A stretch of 64,000 bases of DNA, from the NCBI GenBank assembly GCA_029260215.1, contig JAJDDQ010000066.1, positions 62,001 to 126,000 of the forward strand, written 5' to 3'. The notes beneath the pieces are model-generated. The model searched no databases. It was not told the DNA's origin and saw only the letters and a program-made list of their open reading frames with translations. This stretch comes from Phycisphaerae bacterium (GTDB taxonomy: Bacteria; Planctomycetota; Phycisphaerae; UBA1845). Both the position numbers and the translations under genes were made by a program. Of this stretch, positions 7,922 to 36,703 are shown piece after piece. Position 1 is the first letter of the stretch. Each line of letters starts with the position of its first letter.

Positions 7922-8695
7922 ATGGACCTCGCAACAATCATTGGTTTTATTTCGGGCGTCGCACTCGTACTGTGGGCGATCGTGTCGAAGACCAGCATTA
8001 TGACCTTCGTTGACGGCGGCTCCCTCGCTATTGTCGCCGGCGGGGCGGTCGCGTCTGTTCTGTTGGCATACCCCCTGAAGAACGTCCTGGGTCTAATAGC
8101 CGTGGTCAAGAAAACCGTCCTGACCAAATCGCAGAGTCCCAACGAGATTATCACCGACATGGTACGCTTCGCCGAAGTCGCCCGACGCGACGGCATCCTC
8201 GCGCTTGAAAACGTCGCCGGAGATATCAAAGACCCCTTCATCGTCAGCGGCATTCAAATGGCCGTCGACGGCACCGAGCCGGCCCTCGTCGAACAAATGC
8301 TCAACAGTGAGCTTGACTCCCTGGCCGAACGACATTCCGACGGCAAGGGTATGCTCGAAGCCCTCGGAAAGTACGCGCCGGCCTTTGGCATGATCGGGAC
8401 ACTCGTCGGTCTGGTCATCATGCTTGGAAGCATGGACGACCCCTCGTCCATTGGCCCCGCCATGGCTGTCGCGCTACTTACCACGCTTTACGGCTCCATG
8501 ATCGCCAACATGTTCGCGCTGCCCCTCGCCGACAAACTCGGCGTGCGAAGTCAAGAGGAGCTACTCCTCAAATCGATCGTCATCCGGGGAATCATGGCCA
8601 TCCAGTCAGGTGACAACCCGCGTATCGTTGAGCAGAAACTCAAGACATTCCTGCCCCATCGCCTCCGAGGCGAAGGCGAGGAAGAAGCCGCCTAG
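7922..8695 (+). CDS. motA: Flagellar stator protein MotA
   Basis: 257 residues with four membrane segments (about 5-22, 35-52, 155-172 and 190-210), the MotA/PomA arrangement. The cytoplasmic loop between segments 2 and 3 holds RRDGILALE and the charged residues that face FliG. YAPAFGMIGTLVGLVIML and GPAMAVALLTTLYG are the conserved third and fourth segments. With MotB it forms the ion channel that drives rotation. motB follows nine bases later. Ion type (proton or sodium) cannot be fixed from this protein alone. Confidence 0.95.
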   Translation: MDLATIIGFISGVALVLWAIVSKTSIMTFVDGGSLAIVAGGAVASVLLAYPLKNVLGLIAVVKKTVLTKSQSPNEIITDMVRFAEVARRDGILALENVAGDIKDPFIVSGIQMAVDGTEPALVEQMLNSELDSLAERHSDGKGMLEALGKYAPAFGMIGTLVGLVIMLGSMDDPSSIGPAMAVALLTTLYGSMIANMFALPLADKLGVRSQEELLLKSIVIRGIMAIQSGDNPRIVEQKLKTFLPHRLRGEGEEEAA

Positions 8696-8704
8696 GAGAC
8701 TCCA

Positions 8705-9463
8705 ATGGCAAGGGCCAAGAAACCACCGCCCGCCGGTGCCCCAGACTGGATGGTCACCTACGGCGACATGATGACGCTCCTGCTTTGCTTCTTCGTCATC
8801 CTCGTCTCCATGAGCGAAATCAAGAAGGACCAAAAATTCCAGGAAGTCATGGACTCCATCCGGGTAGCCTTCGGTTACGACGGCACGATCGGCGTCGTCC
8901 CAACCATCGCCAGCAGCAAGAACAGCCTTGTCGAGAAACTCAACCGCGTCGTTCTACCCGACTCCATCAGACACGACGGAGATTCCGACGAGGAAGGAAT
9001 CGACGGCCGGGTCTTTCGCGTTACCAACGTGCGCGAAGGCATCCGCCTGCAAATCGGTGGACGCATCAGCTTCAACAAATTCGAAGCCGTCCTGAAGCCC
9101 AAGGCTGTCACGCTCATTCGAAAGTTGGCGTCCAAGATCGTCGGCCAAAACACAGTCATTAACATTCGCGGTCACGCAACGCTCGAACCGATCCCGCCGG
9201 ACTCGCCGTACCGCGACGCGATGGAACTCTCCATGGCCCGAGCAAGAGCCGTCGCGGATGAGCTTCAGGACAGCGGCGTCAGGCCCGAAAGACTCCGTGT
9301 TATCGGAGTTGGAAACTACGAACCGCTGGTCTCGCAGGCCTACACAGAAGAGCGGATGTCGCTGAACCGTCGCGTCGAGATCATCGTGACCGAAGCCGTC
9401 ATGCACGACTACGCGGGACGACCGCAATACACCGAGGAAAGGCTGGACGAGAATGGCAGATAA
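8705..9463 (+). CDS. motB: Flagellar stator protein MotB
   Basis: 252 residues. One N-terminal membrane segment carries the essential ion-binding aspartate in TYGDMMTLLLCFF (Asp21), followed by a linker with the plug region and an OmpA/MotB peptidoglycan-binding domain at about residues 120-235 (INIRGHA, ELSMARARAVADEL, VGNYEPL, NRRVEI). This anchors the stator to the cell wall. Its 3' end overlaps fliL by 11 bases, suggesting coupling. Confidence 0.95.
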   Translation: MARAKKPPPAGAPDWMVTYGDMMTLLLCFFVILVSMSEIKKDQKFQEVMDSIRVAFGYDGTIGVVPTIASSKNSLVEKLNRVVLPDSIRHDGDSDEEGIDGRVFRVTNVREGIRLQIGGRISFNKFEAVLKPKAVTLIRKLASKIVGQNTVINIRGHATLEPIPPDSPYRDAMELSMARARAVADELQDSGVRPERLRVIGVGNYEPLVSQAYTEERMSLNRRVEIIVTEAVMHDYAGRPQYTEERLDENGR

Positions 9464-9995
9464 GAAAGAAGCCAAGAATAAGGCCGAGGAAGAGCACGCA
9501 CCCGAAGATTCCGGCAAGAAGGGCAAGCTCAAGACGATCATGATCGTCGCAGGCCTCATGCTCGGCGAAGGCGTTGGGCTTTTCGTGGTCATGAATCTCG
9601 TAGCCACCCCGCCCGATGCCGCCCTCGCCGCCGATGACGAAGCCGCAATGGACGATCCGCTGAACCTCGAAACCGAAGCCGAGCTTGAACTCTGTTCGGT
9701 CGATGCGTTCAACCGTCGCGAAGGCCGACTCTTTGTCTACCACATGCAGCTTTCCGTGATGGTGGACGCTGAAAACAAGGAAATCGTCGAAAAATTCGTC
9801 CGCGCAAGAACCGCCTCCATACGCGACCGGGTCCAACTCGTGATCCGGTCAGCCGAACCCGTCGAGCTGAACGACCCCACCCTCGACGCCCTCAAACGCC
9901 AAATTCGCAATGAGGTCAACAATCTGCTCGGCGGCAAGGAACTAATCAAGCAGGTTCTCATCGCAAAAATGCTGCAATCACGCACCAACCTTTGA
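9453..9995 (+). CDS. fliL: Flagellar basal-body-associated protein FliL
   Basis: 180 residues: a lysine and glutamate rich cytoplasmic tail, one membrane segment at about residues 28-46, an acidic linker and a periplasmic FliL domain (YHMQLSVMVDAENKEIVEKF, then ALKRQIRNEVNNLLGG). FliL assembles around the stator and stabilises it. Its position after motB fits. In most genomes fliM follows fliL; here a FliN-type gene follows after 55 bases. Confidence 0.87.
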   Translation: MADKKEAKNKAEEEHAPEDSGKKGKLKTIMIVAGLMLGEGVGLFVVMNLVATPPDAALAADDEAAMDDPLNLETEAELELCSVDAFNRREGRLFVYHMQLSVMVDAENKEIVEKFVRARTASIRDRVQLVIRSAEPVELNDPTLDALKRQIRNEVNNLLGGKELIKQVLIAKMLQSRTNL

Positions 9996-10050: not shown

Positions 10051-11133
10051 ATGGCCGACGAAGCGCAAAACACAACACAACCGGAAGACGACAAGCCAGA
10101 TTCCGAACAGGAACAGGCCGGAGCAGCCCCGGACCCGTCGCCGGACGCGGAAGCAGCGGATCAAACCGCGCAAAATCCGCCGCCCGCCGACGAATCCGCC
10201 GAGACGCCAGCCGAGGTCTCCGAGAACGATCCCGGCACCGAGGCCGAGCAAACGCCCGCCCTCGACGCTGAAGCCGATTGCCCAGCCGAAGTCGATCTGC
10301 AACCCGCACAGGAAGCAACCGATACGCACGATACGCCCGATACGCCTGATACGCCCGAACCCGCCGAGACCGAGGCAACGGCCGAGCCACCGGCTCCTGC
10401 TGCGGCGGACGACGAACCCTTTACCGGGTTCAGCCAAGACGATATCGATGCACTCATTAATGCTGGTGCTACCGATCAAGCTGCCCCCGCCGACGCGCCA
10501 GGCGATCAAGGCGGCCTCTCGTCGCAGGACGAAATCGACGCACTGATGGCCGCCGGCTCTGCCGGTCAGGCCAATCCAGCCGGTGCGCAGGGCGATCTTT
10601 CCCAAGCGGCAATCGACGCTGCCATGTCAGGCGATCAAAGCAGCCTCTCGTCGCAGGACGAAATCGACGCGCTCATGGCTGGTGCTTCTGCGCAGACTCC
10701 GGATGCCTCCAGCCCGCCCGCCGATGAGCGACTCGACTCTTCCGGTCGCCCATTTGACGCGGAGGCCGCTGCAATGGCCGCCGCCATCGCGGAAGAGCAA
10801 AATGAAGCAAGTGCCGCGCCGCAACCGACTCCGGTGAACCTTCCGGATTTCGCAGCCGTCGACGCCGCACCCTCCGCCTACGACATTTCGCTGTTGCGCG
10901 ATGTGGATATGCGCGTGCAGATCGAGCTTGGCAGAACGCTCATGTACATCGAAGACGTTCTTAAACTTTGCGAGGGAAGTGTCGTCGAGCTGGACAACCT
11001 CGCCGGCGACCCTGTCGAGGTCATTGTCAACGGAAGAACTGTCGCCCGCGGCGAAGTGCTTGTCCTCAGCGACAGCTTCTGCGTGCGAATCAGCGAAATC
11101 ATCACGGGGCCGCAAAATGTCGCCAGCGCATAA
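10051..11133 (+). CDS. fliN: FliN-type motor switch protein with four EIDAL-like motifs
   Basis: 360 residues, far longer than E. coli FliN (137). AAAGGA at 10035-10040 precedes the ATG. Residues 1-125 are acidic low complexity rich in Ala, Glu, Asp and Pro. Four motifs resembling the FliM/FliY N-terminal CheY-binding peptide follow: SQDDIDALI at 128-136, SQDEIDALM at 158-166, SQAAIDAAM at 184-192 and SQDEIDALM at 201-209. The SpoA (FliN) domain occupies about 283-355 (DVDMRVQIELGRT, DPVEVIVNGRTVARGEV). Motifs 2 and 4 are also nearly identical in DNA (10501-10548 and 10630-10677), so they arose by recent duplication. No CheC-like or FliM middle domain is present. Role: C-ring component and probable CheY docking site (inference). 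Confidence 0.9.
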   Translation: MADEAQNTTQPEDDKPDSEQEQAGAAPDPSPDAEAADQTAQNPPPADESAETPAEVSENDPGTEAEQTPALDAEADCPAEVDLQPAQEATDTHDTPDTPDTPEPAETEATAEPPAPAAADDEPFTGFSQDDIDALINAGATDQAAPADAPGDQGGLSSQDEIDALMAAGSAGQANPAGAQGDLSQAAIDAAMSGDQSSLSSQDEIDALMAGASAQTPDASSPPADERLDSSGRPFDAEAAAMAAAIAEEQNEASAAPQPTPVNLPDFAAVDAAPSAYDISLLRDVDMRVQIELGRTLMYIEDVLKLCEGSVVELDNLAGDPVEVIVNGRTVARGEVLVLSDSFCVRISEIITGPQNVASA

Positions 11134-12086: not shown

Positions 12087-12908
12087 ATGGAGCATGGACG
12101 CTCAAAACTCGCCCGCACACCAGCCATCGTCTTCACGCTGGTCGTCTTGCTCGCATCGTACGCGCATGCTCAGCCCGTACCGTTCGAAAACACATTCGAT
12201 ATCCCCGACGTGCGCGGCGTCCTGCCATCCGCCACAGATACCAAAGGCGTCAGCGTAACCCTTCAAATTCTCGTCCTCATGACCGTATTGACGCTCGTGC
12301 CGTCAATCCTCGTCATGACCACCTGCTTCACACGCATCCTCGTCGTCATGTCATTGCTGCGACAGGCGATGGCCACCCCGCAACTCCCGCCAGGCCAGGT
12401 TCTGCTCGGATTGTCTATGTTCCTGACGCTGCTCGTCATGACACCAACCTGGTCGAGAATCAACGAACAGGCCATTCAACCCTACTTCGCCAATGAAATG
12501 TCCCAACGAAGAGCGACAGACATCACCCTCGACCACATGCGCGCCTTCATGTTCAGACAGATCGATCGAAGTGGAAACTACGAAGACATCTACCTCTTCC
12601 AGGAATACTCAGCCGGAGCACCCATCGACCCCTCTCAACCGCTGATGCTCGACGACGTACCCTCGACCGTCCTCATTCCAGCATTCATTCTCAGCGAGCT
12701 GAAGACCGCGTTCATCATGGGCTTTCGTATATACCTGCCGTTCCTCGTTATAGATATGGTCATCGCATCCATCCTGATTTCAATGGGTATGATGATGCTC
12801 CCGCCGGTGCTCATCAGTCTCCCGTTCAAAATACTCTTGTTCGTCCTGGCCGACGGCTGGCACCTCATCGTGCAGACGCTGCTCTACAGCTTTGACAACA
12901 TGACATAA
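12087..12908 (+). CDS. fliP: Flagellar type III export gate protein FliP
   Basis: 273 residues with a cleavable-looking signal peptide ending at AHA (about residue 29), as known for FliP. Core membrane motifs are present: ILVLMTVLTLVPSILVMTTC, then FTRILVVMSLLRQA and PPGQVLLGLSMFLTLLVM, and the C-terminal pair ending FKILLFVLADGWHLI. AAGGAG at 12069-12074 lies upstream. FliP forms the pentameric core of the FliPQR gate. fliQ follows ten bases later. Confidence 0.96.
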   Translation: MEHGRSKLARTPAIVFTLVVLLASYAHAQPVPFENTFDIPDVRGVLPSATDTKGVSVTLQILVLMTVLTLVPSILVMTTCFTRILVVMSLLRQAMATPQLPPGQVLLGLSMFLTLLVMTPTWSRINEQAIQPYFANEMSQRRATDITLDHMRAFMFRQIDRSGNYEDIYLFQEYSAGAPIDPSQPLMLDDVPSTVLIPAFILSELKTAFIMGFRIYLPFLVIDMVIASILISMGMMMLPPVLISLPFKILLFVLADGWHLIVQTLLYSFDNMT

Positions 12909-12918
12909 GGAATACGCA

Positions 12919-13176
12919 ATGGACCTCGGAGCATCACTGGACATCGGACGCGCAGCCTTCTTCATGGCACTCTCAACCTCCGCGCCCATCCTCGTAATCG
13001 GGATGGTCGTCGGACTGACCATCTCAGTCATCCAGTCCGTCACACAGCTTCAGGAGCAAACACTCACCTTCGTGCCGAAAATCGCAGCCATGGTCATCGC
13101 AGCCGCCTACTTCATTCCCTGGATCGCGAACAGAATGCTCGCCTACGCACAGGAAATGTTCGGGTCGTTACCATAA
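12919..13176 (+). CDS. fliQ: Flagellar export gate protein FliQ
   Basis: 85 residues, two membrane helices (about 12-40 and 50-72) typical of FliQ, with APILVIGMVVGLTISVIQSV and QTLTFVPKIAAM. AAGGAA lies just before the ATG. FliQ packs around FliP and FliR in the export gate. Confidence 0.95.
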   Translation: MDLGASLDIGRAAFFMALSTSAPILVIGMVVGLTISVIQSVTQLQEQTLTFVPKIAAMVIAAAYFIPWIANRMLAYAQEMFGSLP

Positions 13177-13196
13177 CAAGCACTGAGGGGAAACAG

Positions 13197-13973
13197 TTGC
13201 CCACGATTGCCATCAATCTAAAATTCCTCCTCCCGCCGTTCCTGCTCGTACTGGTGCGCGTCAGCGGTCTCACTCTGTCCGCACCGATTTTCAGCAGCCC
13301 CGGCATTCCCAGGCATGTCAAAGTCGGGTTTGTATCCGTAATCTCACTAATGATCACCCCGATCGTTTTCCCGCTCATACCCATGCAGTTGACTCTGGGA
13401 ACAGTCGTCGCCGCCGTCGTCGGGGAGTTAATCATCGGACTCGTCCTCGGCCTCGGCGTCTCGCTCGTATTCCTCGGCGCCCGCGCGACCGGCGTCATCG
13501 TCGGGCAGCAAGCCGGACTTTCGCTGGGGCAGGTCCTAAACCCCATGCTCAACGAGAATTCCTCCATCATCGACCAGTTATTTTACCTCGTCACGCTCAT
13601 GGTCTTCCTCGCCGTCGGAGGGCACCGGACGCTCGTCGCGACCCTGCTCGATACCTTCCACGCAATCCCCCCCGCATCCTTCAAATTCAACGCATCATTG
13701 CCCACCGTGATCGAAACACTCATCACCAGCGCATTCCAATTGGCCATCAGAATGTCCGCCCCCACGCTCATAGCACTGTTCATGGCCACACTCACGATGG
13801 GCTTCGTGTCGCGAACCATCCCGCAGTTGAACATTCTCTCGGTCGGTTTCGCCGTGCGCGTATTCGTCGCCCTGACAGCCGCCGCCGTCGCGATGCCGTT
13901 CTCATTCGATCTCATAAACGGAGAATTCATCAAGACATTCGACCTGCTCCGAGAAGTATTCGGGCTGGATTGA
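13197..13973 (+). CDS. fliR: Flagellar export gate protein FliR
   Basis: 258 residues from a TTG start, six bases after a strong GAGGGG at 13185-13190. About six membrane segments; family motifs include RVSGLTLSAPIFSSPGIP and the GELIIGLVLGLGVSLVF segment, then GQQAGLSLGQVLNPMLNE. FliR completes the FliPQR core. The gene is separated from flhB by 108 bases containing a family A repeat. Confidence 0.95.
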   Translation: MPTIAINLKFLLPPFLLVLVRVSGLTLSAPIFSSPGIPRHVKVGFVSVISLMITPIVFPLIPMQLTLGTVVAAVVGELIIGLVLGLGVSLVFLGARATGVIVGQQAGLSLGQVLNPMLNENSSIIDQLFYLVTLMVFLAVGGHRTLVATLLDTFHAIPPASFKFNASLPTVIETLITSAFQLAIRMSAPTLIALFMATLTMGFVSRTIPQLNILSVGFAVRVFVALTAAAVAMPFSFDLINGEFIKTFDLLREVFGLD

Positions 13974-13997
13974 AGATAATTGGTATACGGGCCAGCG

Positions 13998-14023
13998 AGC
14001 CGCGAACTTCAGTTCGCGAGGAC
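13998..14023 (+). repeat. Palindromic repeat family A, copy 2
   Basis: A variant with AGCCGCGAACTTCAGTTCGC then GAGGAC. The G-to-A change in the left arm is matched by a C-to-T change in the right arm, so the hairpin is preserved. Lies between fliR and flhB, same orientation as copy 1. Confidence 0.8.
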
Positions 14024-14081
14024 GACAGAAGTAAAACTCACGTAATTCATCAATAGACGTTTGACAATACAGTAAGAAACA

Positions 14082-15164
14082 ATGGCAGAGGACACCGGAG
14101 ACAAAACAGAGGCCCCAACACCGCGCAGACGCATGGAGTCGCGCAACAAAGGCCAGATCGCACGCAGCCAGGATCTCAACGCAGCCGTCATGTTATTGGC
14201 TTCGTTCATGGGCCTGGCGCTCTTCGGCCCGCGCATCTGGGTGGACCTCATCGCGATCATGCACGAATCACTCGACGCCCGAGTGTACCCCGCACCCGAT
14301 CAGCCGATTGTCATCGGTATCGCCAACCTGAGACGCATAGGCATGGCACTCGCGCCGTTCTTCGGCACAGTCTTCATCGTTGGGCTGACCGTACTCTACG
14401 CACAGGTCGGCTGGCTTATCACATTCGACCCGCTTACCCCGAATCTGGGAAAACTCAATCCCGTGAACGGCTTCAAGCGACTCTTTTCGCCGCATTCACT
14501 CGTCCAGCTCGCGCAAAACATGCTCAAGTTGTTCCTCATTGTAGGCGTAGCCTGGCTCACCATTCGTTCCATGACTAGTCGCATCACCCACGCCTACGGC
14601 CTCGATTTTATCGCCGTCCTGCCCTTCGCCTCGGGCCTGGTCTTCAATCTCGGCGTACGTCTTCTCATCATACTGCTGCTGCTCGCCTTCATAGACTACA
14701 TCTACCAGCGCTACCGCCACGAAAAACAGCTCAAAATGACCAAAGAGGAAGTCAAAGAGGAAATGAAGCGTATGGAGGGCGACCCCGTCGTCAAACGCAG
14801 GCGTCGCGAAGTCCAAATGAAACTCGCCACCCAACGCGCTCGGACCGTCGTCCCTCAAGCCGACGTCATCGTCGCCAACCCCACACACTTTGCAGTCGCA
14901 CTCAAGTACGACGCCGAGACCATGATCGCGCCCAAAGTCATCGCCAAGGGCGTCGATTTCCTTGCCCTGAAAATCCGGGAAATAGCAGCCGAAGCCGGCG
15001 TCCCCGTCGTCGAAAAACCGCTGCTCGCACGATCACTATACGCCGAGGTCGACGTCGGCCAGGAGGTTCCCGAAAAATTCTACCGACTCGTCGCCGAAGT
15101 GTTGGCCTACGTCTTCGAAATGGCCAACGCAAACCTAAAACCAAGACCGGTACCCGTAGCATGA
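14082..15164 (+). CDS. flhB: Flagellar export switch protein FlhB
   Basis: 360 residues: N-terminal DKTEAPTPRRRMESRNKGQ, four membrane segments, and a cytoplasmic domain with the self-cleaving NPTH motif at residues 266-269. Cleavage between Asn and Pro lets FlhB change export specificity when FliK signals hook completion. Post-cleavage features FAVALKYD and APKVIAKGVDFLALKIREIA are intact, so the protein looks functional. Confidence 0.97.
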   Translation: MAEDTGDKTEAPTPRRRMESRNKGQIARSQDLNAAVMLLASFMGLALFGPRIWVDLIAIMHESLDARVYPAPDQPIVIGIANLRRIGMALAPFFGTVFIVGLTVLYAQVGWLITFDPLTPNLGKLNPVNGFKRLFSPHSLVQLAQNMLKLFLIVGVAWLTIRSMTSRITHAYGLDFIAVLPFASGLVFNLGVRLLIILLLLAFIDYIYQRYRHEKQLKMTKEEVKEEMKRMEGDPVVKRRRREVQMKLATQRARTVVPQADVIVANPTHFAVALKYDAETMIAPKVIAKGVDFLALKIREIAAEAGVPVVEKPLLARSLYAEVDVGQEVPEKFYRLVAEVLAYVFEMANANLKPRPVPVA

Positions 15165-18735: not shown

Positions 18736-19674
18736 ATGAGGTTCCGCCGCGACCCAAACACAAGCGGAAGAATATCCGTCGCATCGACCCGCGATCGGAC
18801 GACCCCAAAGTTCCCATTCGCCTCAGACTCACCGCACCCCACAAGACCGTACCCATCAGAAAACCGCATCGCAATCATCGGCTCAGTCGCCGGCGTCGGC
18901 CGACGAACGCTCCTGCGAAACCTCGTCGCCACCCTCGCAGCCCGAAGCCACGACGTCTCCGTCGAACGCGAATTCAGCCAAGGAACCCCCGACCTCTCCG
19001 CCGATTGGAACCCCAACCCGCTCGCCGACCGCCGTTTCCACCGATCAGAGTACGCACCGCCGCGCCCCCAAGGAGGACATCACATTCTGGGTGGCACGGT
19101 CTGGCGCAGCCAGGCCGTGGCATTCCGCAACGCCCACGGCCCACCGGCCGCGCCGGTAGACGGTGTAACCCTGCGCCACGAGTTGCCACCCGTTTCGGGA
19201 TGCACCCGCCCCCAGCTCATACTCACCGATTGCGGTGTCGGGTTCCAACACGCCGCCATCGAACGCGCAGCCAAGTGCCGCCAAATCATGATCGTGACGT
19301 CCCCCGACAAAATCGCCTTGACCTTCGCCTACACAATAATCAAAGCCCTGCGCATCGAAGCGTATCACGGAGCCATAGGCCTCGTCCTCAATCGCGCCGC
19401 CAATCGCGTCACCGCCGAAGATGCCATCATCCGCATCCGGCACGCCGCGAAAAAATTCCTCAAGATTTCCCTTGCATACGCCGAGTGGTCGCTCCAAGAT
19501 GACCGCGTATCGTGTGCGATCGGAGTACGGGAACCCCATGTTCTCACCGCTCCACGCAGTCGCTACAGCCGATGCGTCGTGCGAATCGCCGACCAGCTCG
19601 CGAAGGATCGCGAGACCTGTCACCGGGGTTCGCTCACGCAGACATTGACGCGTTTCGCCGCACTATTCGCCTAG
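18736..19674 (+). CDS. FlhG/MinD-like protein with degenerate P-loop and repeat insertion
   Basis: 312 residues, placed after flhF where flhG (a MinD-type ATPase that limits flagellar number) belongs. The C-terminal half matches FlhG: LILTDCGVGFQHAAIERAAK, then QIMIVTSPDKIALTFAYTII. The N-terminal nucleotide site is broken: where the family has GKGGVGKT this has SVAGVGRRT (residues 50-58), so the P-loop lysine is arginine. Residues about 119-156 are encoded by tandem hairpin repeats at 19090-19203, the second of which recurs in non-coding DNA at 36501. Either a decaying gene still in frame or a repurposed non-hydrolysing FlhG. The frame itself is open throughout. Confidence 0.6.
   Translation: MRFRRDPNTSGRISVASTRDRTTPKFPFASDSPHPTRPYPSENRIAIIGSVAGVGRRTLLRNLVATLAARSHDVSVEREFSQGTPDLSADWNPNPLADRRFHRSEYAPPRPQGGHHILGGTVWRSQAVAFRNAHGPPAAPVDGVTLRHELPPVSGCTRPQLILTDCGVGFQHAAIERAAKCRQIMIVTSPDKIALTFAYTIIKALRIEAYHGAIGLVLNRAANRVTAEDAIIRIRHAAKKFLKISLAYAEWSLQDDRVSCAIGVREPHVLTAPRSRYSRCVVRIADQLAKDRETCHRGSLTQTLTRFAALFA
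19133..19203 (+). repeat. Hairpin repeat family E, copy 1 (inside the flhG-like gene)
   Basis: 71 bases sharing CGGTAGAC, ACCCTGCGCCACG and CCGTTT-GGGATGC with 36501-36571; I count roughly 80% identity without gaps. The first 30 bases form an imperfect hairpin (ACGGCCCACCGGC against GCCGGTAGACGGT). A second hairpin, CACGGTCTGGC paired with GCCAGGCCGTG, lies just upstream at about 19096-19120. Confidence 0.75.
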
Positions 19675-36386: not shown

Positions 36387-36703
36387 GCGGTGTCACTTCG
36401 CATCCGGCGTTCATGGCTCGGGTGATTCCAAAACGCGATTGAATTATTTGAAGCTGACCGGCTTACGTCAGGCGTAGTCAGGCTGGGGTGTTGTGCAACT
36501 CTCACGGCCTACCGATTGCGTCGGTAGACCGTGCCACCCTGCGCCACGGATTGCCTGCCGTTTTGGGATGCGCGCTTTTCGTCAACCGGCATTGCATGCG
36601 GCTGGGGGAATGGCGGTGATTGGGTTAGTATCTTTGGGGGATGCAGCGGCGCGTTGTTTGGACGGGCTGGGTTGATGCGGAATGTTTTGGGATTGAGTTT
36701 TGT
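36387..36703. other. Intergenic region carrying repeat family E
   Basis: About 317 bases between the HD-GYP gene and rnhA. It holds the second copy of family E at 36501-36571; I see no gene with a ribosome site. Long minus-strand frames across here and the next two genes are shadows. Confidence 0.5.
36501..36571 (+). repeat. Hairpin repeat family E, copy 2 (intergenic)
   Basis: 71 bases, with ACGGCCTACCGAT / GTCGGTAGACCGT as a near-perfect hairpin and then ACCCTGCGCCACGGATTG and CCGTTTTGGGATGC. Counterpart of 19133-19203 in the flhG-like gene. Confidence 0.75.

Follow-up and report, generated by a model that had tools for sequence, protein, structure and literature searches.

The window analysed here is the whole stretch of 64,000 nucleotides from Phycisphaerae bacterium contig JAJDDQ010000066.1, and its source genome (G000) is 97% complete. 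The gene in question, fliN1, is an open reading frame at 10051-11133 on the plus strand, as are the other fliN1 features and operon genes given below. It encodes a FliN protein of 360 amino acids, in which an ordinary FliN domain lies C-terminal to a 280-residue arm. The domain (FliMN_C, also called SpoA; residues 281-351, 10891-11103) scored 71.5 bits against PF01052 (cut-off 23.8) and 91.7 bits against TIGR02480, the fliN model (cut-off 84), while the arm was acidic, of low complexity, and rich in Ala, Pro, Asp and Glu.

Four EIDAL-type motifs in the arm of FliN1

An original prediction, made from the letters of the window alone, had claimed that this FliN carries four copies of the peptide by which FliM and FliY bind CheY. 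The four motifs are real. They read FSQDDIDALI (motif 1, residues 127-136, 10429-10458), SSQDEIDALM (motif 2, residues 157-166, 10519-10548), LSQAAIDAAM (motif 3, residues 183-192, 10597-10626) and SSQDEIDALM (motif 4, residues 200-209, 10648-10677). The positions first given for them (128, 158, 184 and 201) count from the S of S-Q-x; the core D/E/A residues lie at 131, 161, 187 and 204, and 17 to 30 residues separate one motif from the next. Motif 3 (AAIDAAM) is weakened, as had been noticed. The claim that two copies are duplicates at the DNA level was borne out by DNA sequence and codon comparison, which placed motifs 2 and 4 in a direct duplication of 52 bases (copy A, 10499-10550; copy B, 10628-10679). 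The two copies share 48 of 52 bases, including an identical run of 28. Since there are only four differences, two of them silent in motif codons, the duplication is fairly recent.

A chance origin of the motifs was rejected by shuffling: the strict motif occurred three times in the real N-terminal region and in none of 2000 shuffles of it. Across the whole genome, the codon pattern for Q-x-D/E-I-D-A was found at nine places, namely three in fliN1, one in each of two FliN paralogues, and four in unrelated frames. A structure model built on two aligned sequences (mean predicted local distance difference test, pLDDT, 46) was used for helix positions alone. Within the first 236 residues, its predicted helices fell on the four motifs (129-139, 158-168, 185-192 and 203-210) and nowhere else, all with low confidence (pLDDT blocks of about 40-63, a weak signal).

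A further conserved block, LDSSGRPFDAEAAAMAAAIAEE (residues 228-249, 10732-10797), follows the repeats and precedes the SpoA domain; it has the pattern LDS(S/A)GRPFD..AAAMAAAI common to relatives and a predicted helix at 237-249, and is perhaps the FliN alpha1 helix. The possibility that FliN1 is a FliY was rejected, because the CheC-type phosphatase middle domain of FliY is absent (Pfam reported FliMN_C only). The NCBIfam FliY match spanned residues 247-352 only and stayed far under its cut-off. The FliM middle domain PF02154 was likewise not found in FliN1 by the Pfam scan; it is present in a separate fliM on contig C74.

The neighbouring genes were examined as well. The stator genes motA and motB (7922-9463; PF01618, PF13677, PF00691) and fliL (9453-9995; PF03748, 33.9 bits) lie upstream, and fliP, fliQ, fliR and flhB (12087-15164; PF00813, PF01313, PF01311, PF01312) lie downstream. 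The operon reads motA-motB-fliL-fliN-fliO-fliP-fliQ-fliR-flhB, and the position of fliN1 between fliL and fliO/fliP is that of a core FliN. By its domain content and gene order, FliN1 is the C-ring FliN that the flagellar operon encodes. Further along the window, downstream of flhF, a divergent FlhG is encoded at 18736-19674 (phmmer E 1e-10 to 4rz2). An in-frame stretch of this gene at about 19009-19216 has matches at about 50 further places in the genome and is left uncovered by most FlhG matches in relatives, and a second DNA copy lies at 36467-36571 (77% over 105 bases). A dispersed repeat thus seems to have been inserted into flhG and read through.

Motif number and conservation across the order

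The comparison of copy number in related planctomycetes that the original prediction had proposed gave a range from 0 to 5 over 54 genomes of the order. Thirteen FliN1 orthologues had no motif, 13 had one, 13 had two, 11 had three, three had four and one had five, so that at least two were present in 28 of 54; one single-motif orthologue (PTSVDDMA) is probably spurious. At least one motif was found in 28 of 30 orthologues of the window's own family. Among FliN proteins sampled elsewhere in the class and phylum, most had no motif and none had more than one clear motif, and a genome-collection search with the full FliN1 protein returned mainly single-motif proteins of other phyla. On a FliN-domain tree the motif-count state changed many times, and the number varied even inside one genus (3 and 4 in G003 and G033).

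To compare motifs with linkers, two congeneric pairs were aligned. In the motif codons, 21 of 24 amino acids were kept in the first pair (88%, with 7 synonymous changes) and 23 of 24 in the second (96%, with 6 synonymous changes). The linkers of the same pairs kept 94 of 180 (52%) and 115 of 140 (82%), and the SpoA domain kept 93% and 96%, close to the motifs. Because synonymous changes do occur in the motifs, their conservation does not come from recency. Over 89 FliN motif copies the pattern was [LFVI]-S-Q-x-D-I-D-A-[LA]-[LM], in agreement with the N-terminus of FliM in this order. Position -2 was hydrophobic in 90% of copies and position -1 was Ser or Asp in about 80%, as in FliM, and both positions lie outside the search expression. 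Judged from these comparisons, the FliN motif array is real, lineage-wide and unexpected, and it is apparently under selection.

fliM, FliN paralogues and chemotaxis genes

The original prediction had also held that fliM is missing. This was right for the operon, where no fliM lies between fliL and fliN, and wrong for the genome, where loss of fliM was rejected. A single intact fliM was found on contig C74, apart from the contig of fliN1. It encodes 337 amino acids (PF02154, 225 bits), and its N-terminus, MSDVLEQSEVDALLSAV, has its own motif, LEQSEVDALL. The genome search thus found a normal fliM with EVDALL, one half of what had been named as speaking against the prediction, and it found cheY genes as well. 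Among relatives, fliM was present in 53 of 60 and never adjoined fliN1; the two genes lay on separate contigs or no closer than about 46 kb, and the motif was found in 30 of 30 FliM N-termini read (degraded to EVNALL in two). The suggestion that FliN could replace FliM in CheY capture therefore does not hold, because the same genome has a complete fliM whose N-terminal motif is standard. Since fliM is displaced throughout the order, the lack of it in this operon has no explanatory value. A link between displacement and motif gain was rejected too: in family f4, fliM is displaced in 6 of 6 genomes and the FliN1 motif count is 0, so displacement did not drive the FliN repeats.

The two FliN paralogues of the genome (FliN2; contigs C43 and C44) have one N-terminal motif each, FDQSEIDALL and LDQSEIDALL. 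Across most of the order, FliN2 (loci L004, L005 and L209-L238) directly adjoins a fabF-like ketoacyl-ACP synthase gene and usually has a single N-terminal EIDAL motif; a fabF match was found at 24 of 31 loci, and both paralogues of G000 form such pairs. As a separate observation, the FliM proteins of the congeneric genomes G042 and G046 (loci L061 and L065) have a motif degraded to DPNEVNALL; CheA was not found in these genomes and their FliN1 has no motif. Parallel decay of the FliM and FliN1 motifs with loss of chemotaxis is possible there.

The chemotaxis operon of G000 is complete, with genes for a methyl-accepting chemotaxis protein (MCP), CheR, CheA, a CheC-like protein, CheD, CheY and CheB. 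A second CheY, on contig C47, lies next to CheX and apart from this operon; it is 48% identical to Escherichia coli CheY and keeps T87, E89, A90, K92, Y106, V108, K109 and K119 of that protein. By alignment with these residues, which we take to include those that touch FliM, the C47 CheY keeps most of the FliM-binding face. This second CheY and its partner CheX form locus L124:6010-6866, and the CheY of the main che operon keeps fewer FliM-contact residues.

Motif number was then set against CheA. CheA was found in 15 of 15 genomes with at least three FliN motifs versus 19 of 39 with fewer (Fisher p = 3e-4, uncorrected for relatedness), and 0 of 20 CheA-less genomes had three or more. When only genomes at least 90% complete were counted, the figures were 11 of 11 versus 17 of 31 (p = 0.0075). 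The Pfam model used for CheA also picks up CheA-like kinases with no flagellar role, and gaps in draft genomes may explain some absences. The FliM motif persisted in several CheA-less genomes; high FliN copy numbers did not.

A putative CheY receptor on FliN and its relation to known systems

We propose that FliN1 carries a flexible arm for putative capture of phosphorylated CheY (CheY-P) at several sites, supplementing FliM, and we give this a probability of about 0.68. Of the two roles first suggested for FliN, supplementing FliM is thus the better inference, with indirect support from motif conservation, the FliM-like pattern, the low-confidence helices and the tracking of CheA by motif count. 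The EIDALL peptide, on FliM as on FliY, is bound by CheY-P, and the N-terminus is described as recruiting CheY-P, which then moves to the FliM core (PMC9126983). In Caulobacter, the extra density ascribed to a bound CheY-like protein was lost when FliM carried the ID57WA change in this motif region (PMC7534056). The Salmonella ring has three FliN per FliM (PMC11528121).

The arm would be expanded and probably disordered, with FliM-type CheY-binding peptides strung along it, each of which may fold as a short helix on the alpha4-beta5-alpha5 face of activated CheY, like FliM-N. Such arms would concentrate CheY-P near the ring and hand it to the effective FliM/FliG site. In the light of findings on FliM recruitment, the Salmonella ring and EIDAL-bearing FliN proteins (PMC9126983, PMC11528121, PMC6946799), the most likely role of the arm is to draw CheY-P to numerous sites on the ring and to feed FliM/FliG. 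If Salmonella stoichiometry (a 34-fold ring) and fliN1 at all FliN positions are assumed, about 400 extra docking peptides would stand beside the 34 on FliM; FliN2 paralogues could occupy some FliN positions and lower this number. The motor would then be likely to respond more sensitively when CheY-P is low, and CheY-P would be likely to be buffered or retained there. More tentatively, at odds just short of even, the array may be a copy-number-tunable multivalent CheY receptor. Lineages would tune motor sensitivity by gaining or losing docking peptides on the most abundant ring subunit, and recruitment (FliN arms) would be split from switching (FliM/FliG).

Several points weigh against capture of CheY-P by the arm. 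In Salmonella, 34 CheY lie between FliM and FliG and leave FliN untouched (PMC11528121). None of the four window motifs has the full LL, and Ala replaces the first Leu of FliM in about 40% of FliN motif copies, so the affinity of these motifs for CheY may be low. Of the 13 orthologues without a motif, four come from genomes having CheA. Corrected for relatedness, the supported CheA contrasts gave 2.5 pairs for and 0.1 against, which is the same direction with too few pairs to confirm the association.

Three other explanations were considered. FlhG acts in C-ring loading through contacts with the FliM N-terminus or FliY, and the repeats might bind FlhG or another assembly factor rather than mainly CheY. 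The window does encode the divergent FlhG described above, and several CheA-less relatives retain the FliM motif, which shows that it can survive where CheA is missing. On the other side, the FliN copy number tracks CheA; FlhG was detected in 33 of 40 relatives, among them CheA-less ones in which FliN motifs are few or lacking; and the window's FlhG looks altered by the in-frame insertion. That the FliM motif outlasts CheA and high FliN counts do not favours CheY over FlhG as the partner, without proof, and we regard an FlhG role as rather unlikely. It is quite unlikely, in our view, that the arm is a CheY-P sink or a delivery scaffold for phosphatases (CheX/CheC) that shortens the signal instead of feeding the switch. 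In FliY of Bacillus subtilis, the same peptide is linked to a CheC-type phosphatase (PMC12826062; PMC9126983), and G000 has both CheX beside the E. coli-like CheY and the CheC-like gene in its che operon; FliN1, however, has the SpoA domain only, with no CheC domain, and no link from CheX or CheC to FliN was seen in G000.

Neutral expansion, a shade less probable still, would have multiplied one ancestral motif by slippage and duplication in a low-complexity arm and left the extra copies functionless. The 52-base duplication, the difference in number within a genus, and the repeated changes on the tree fit such a process. Against it speak motifs that stay intact while linkers diverge, a pattern constrained beyond the search core, and counts that track CheA.

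If capture of CheY-P by the FliN arm is true, the motor of one planctomycete order gains many more CheY docking sites on top of ordinary FliM docking, from a FliN with up to five copies of a peptide that normally catches CheY once per subunit. How the number and placement of docking sites contribute to the steep response of the motor is a standing question, and a series of FliN proteins whose peptide number runs from 0 to 5, in related genomes of which some have CheA and others lack it, is natural material for testing it. The array also calls into question the view that CheY is recruited through one peptide per FliM or FliY.

No description of tandem EIDAL motifs appeared among the results listed in searches of open-licence papers. 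Among the closest known counterparts is the CheY-binding segment of E. coli FliM (FliM-N; 1F4V), which has the same hydrophobic-S/D-Q-x-E/D-I/V-D-A-L-L pattern; it is a single copy at the extreme N-terminus of FliM, whereas FliN1 has several internal copies on its arm. FliY of B. subtilis and Thermotoga maritima resembles FliN1 as a C-ring protein in which an N-terminal EIDAL peptide accompanies a SpoA domain, but it has one motif and a CheC-type phosphatase domain, and FliN1 has several motifs and no such domain. FliN proteins with a full or degenerate EIDAL motif occur sporadically in a 12-species survey (PMC6946799); they place the motif on FliN as in FliN1, and the passages of that survey consulted here describe neither a tandem array nor copy-number variation. 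The FliN2 paralogues share the SpoA domain and the EIDAL motif with FliN1, but have one motif at the extreme N-terminus and a gene beside the fabF-like gene, in contrast to the motif array and flagellar operon of FliN1. Known FliN and FliY proteins carry one motif, and the tandem, copy-variable array on FliN is new.
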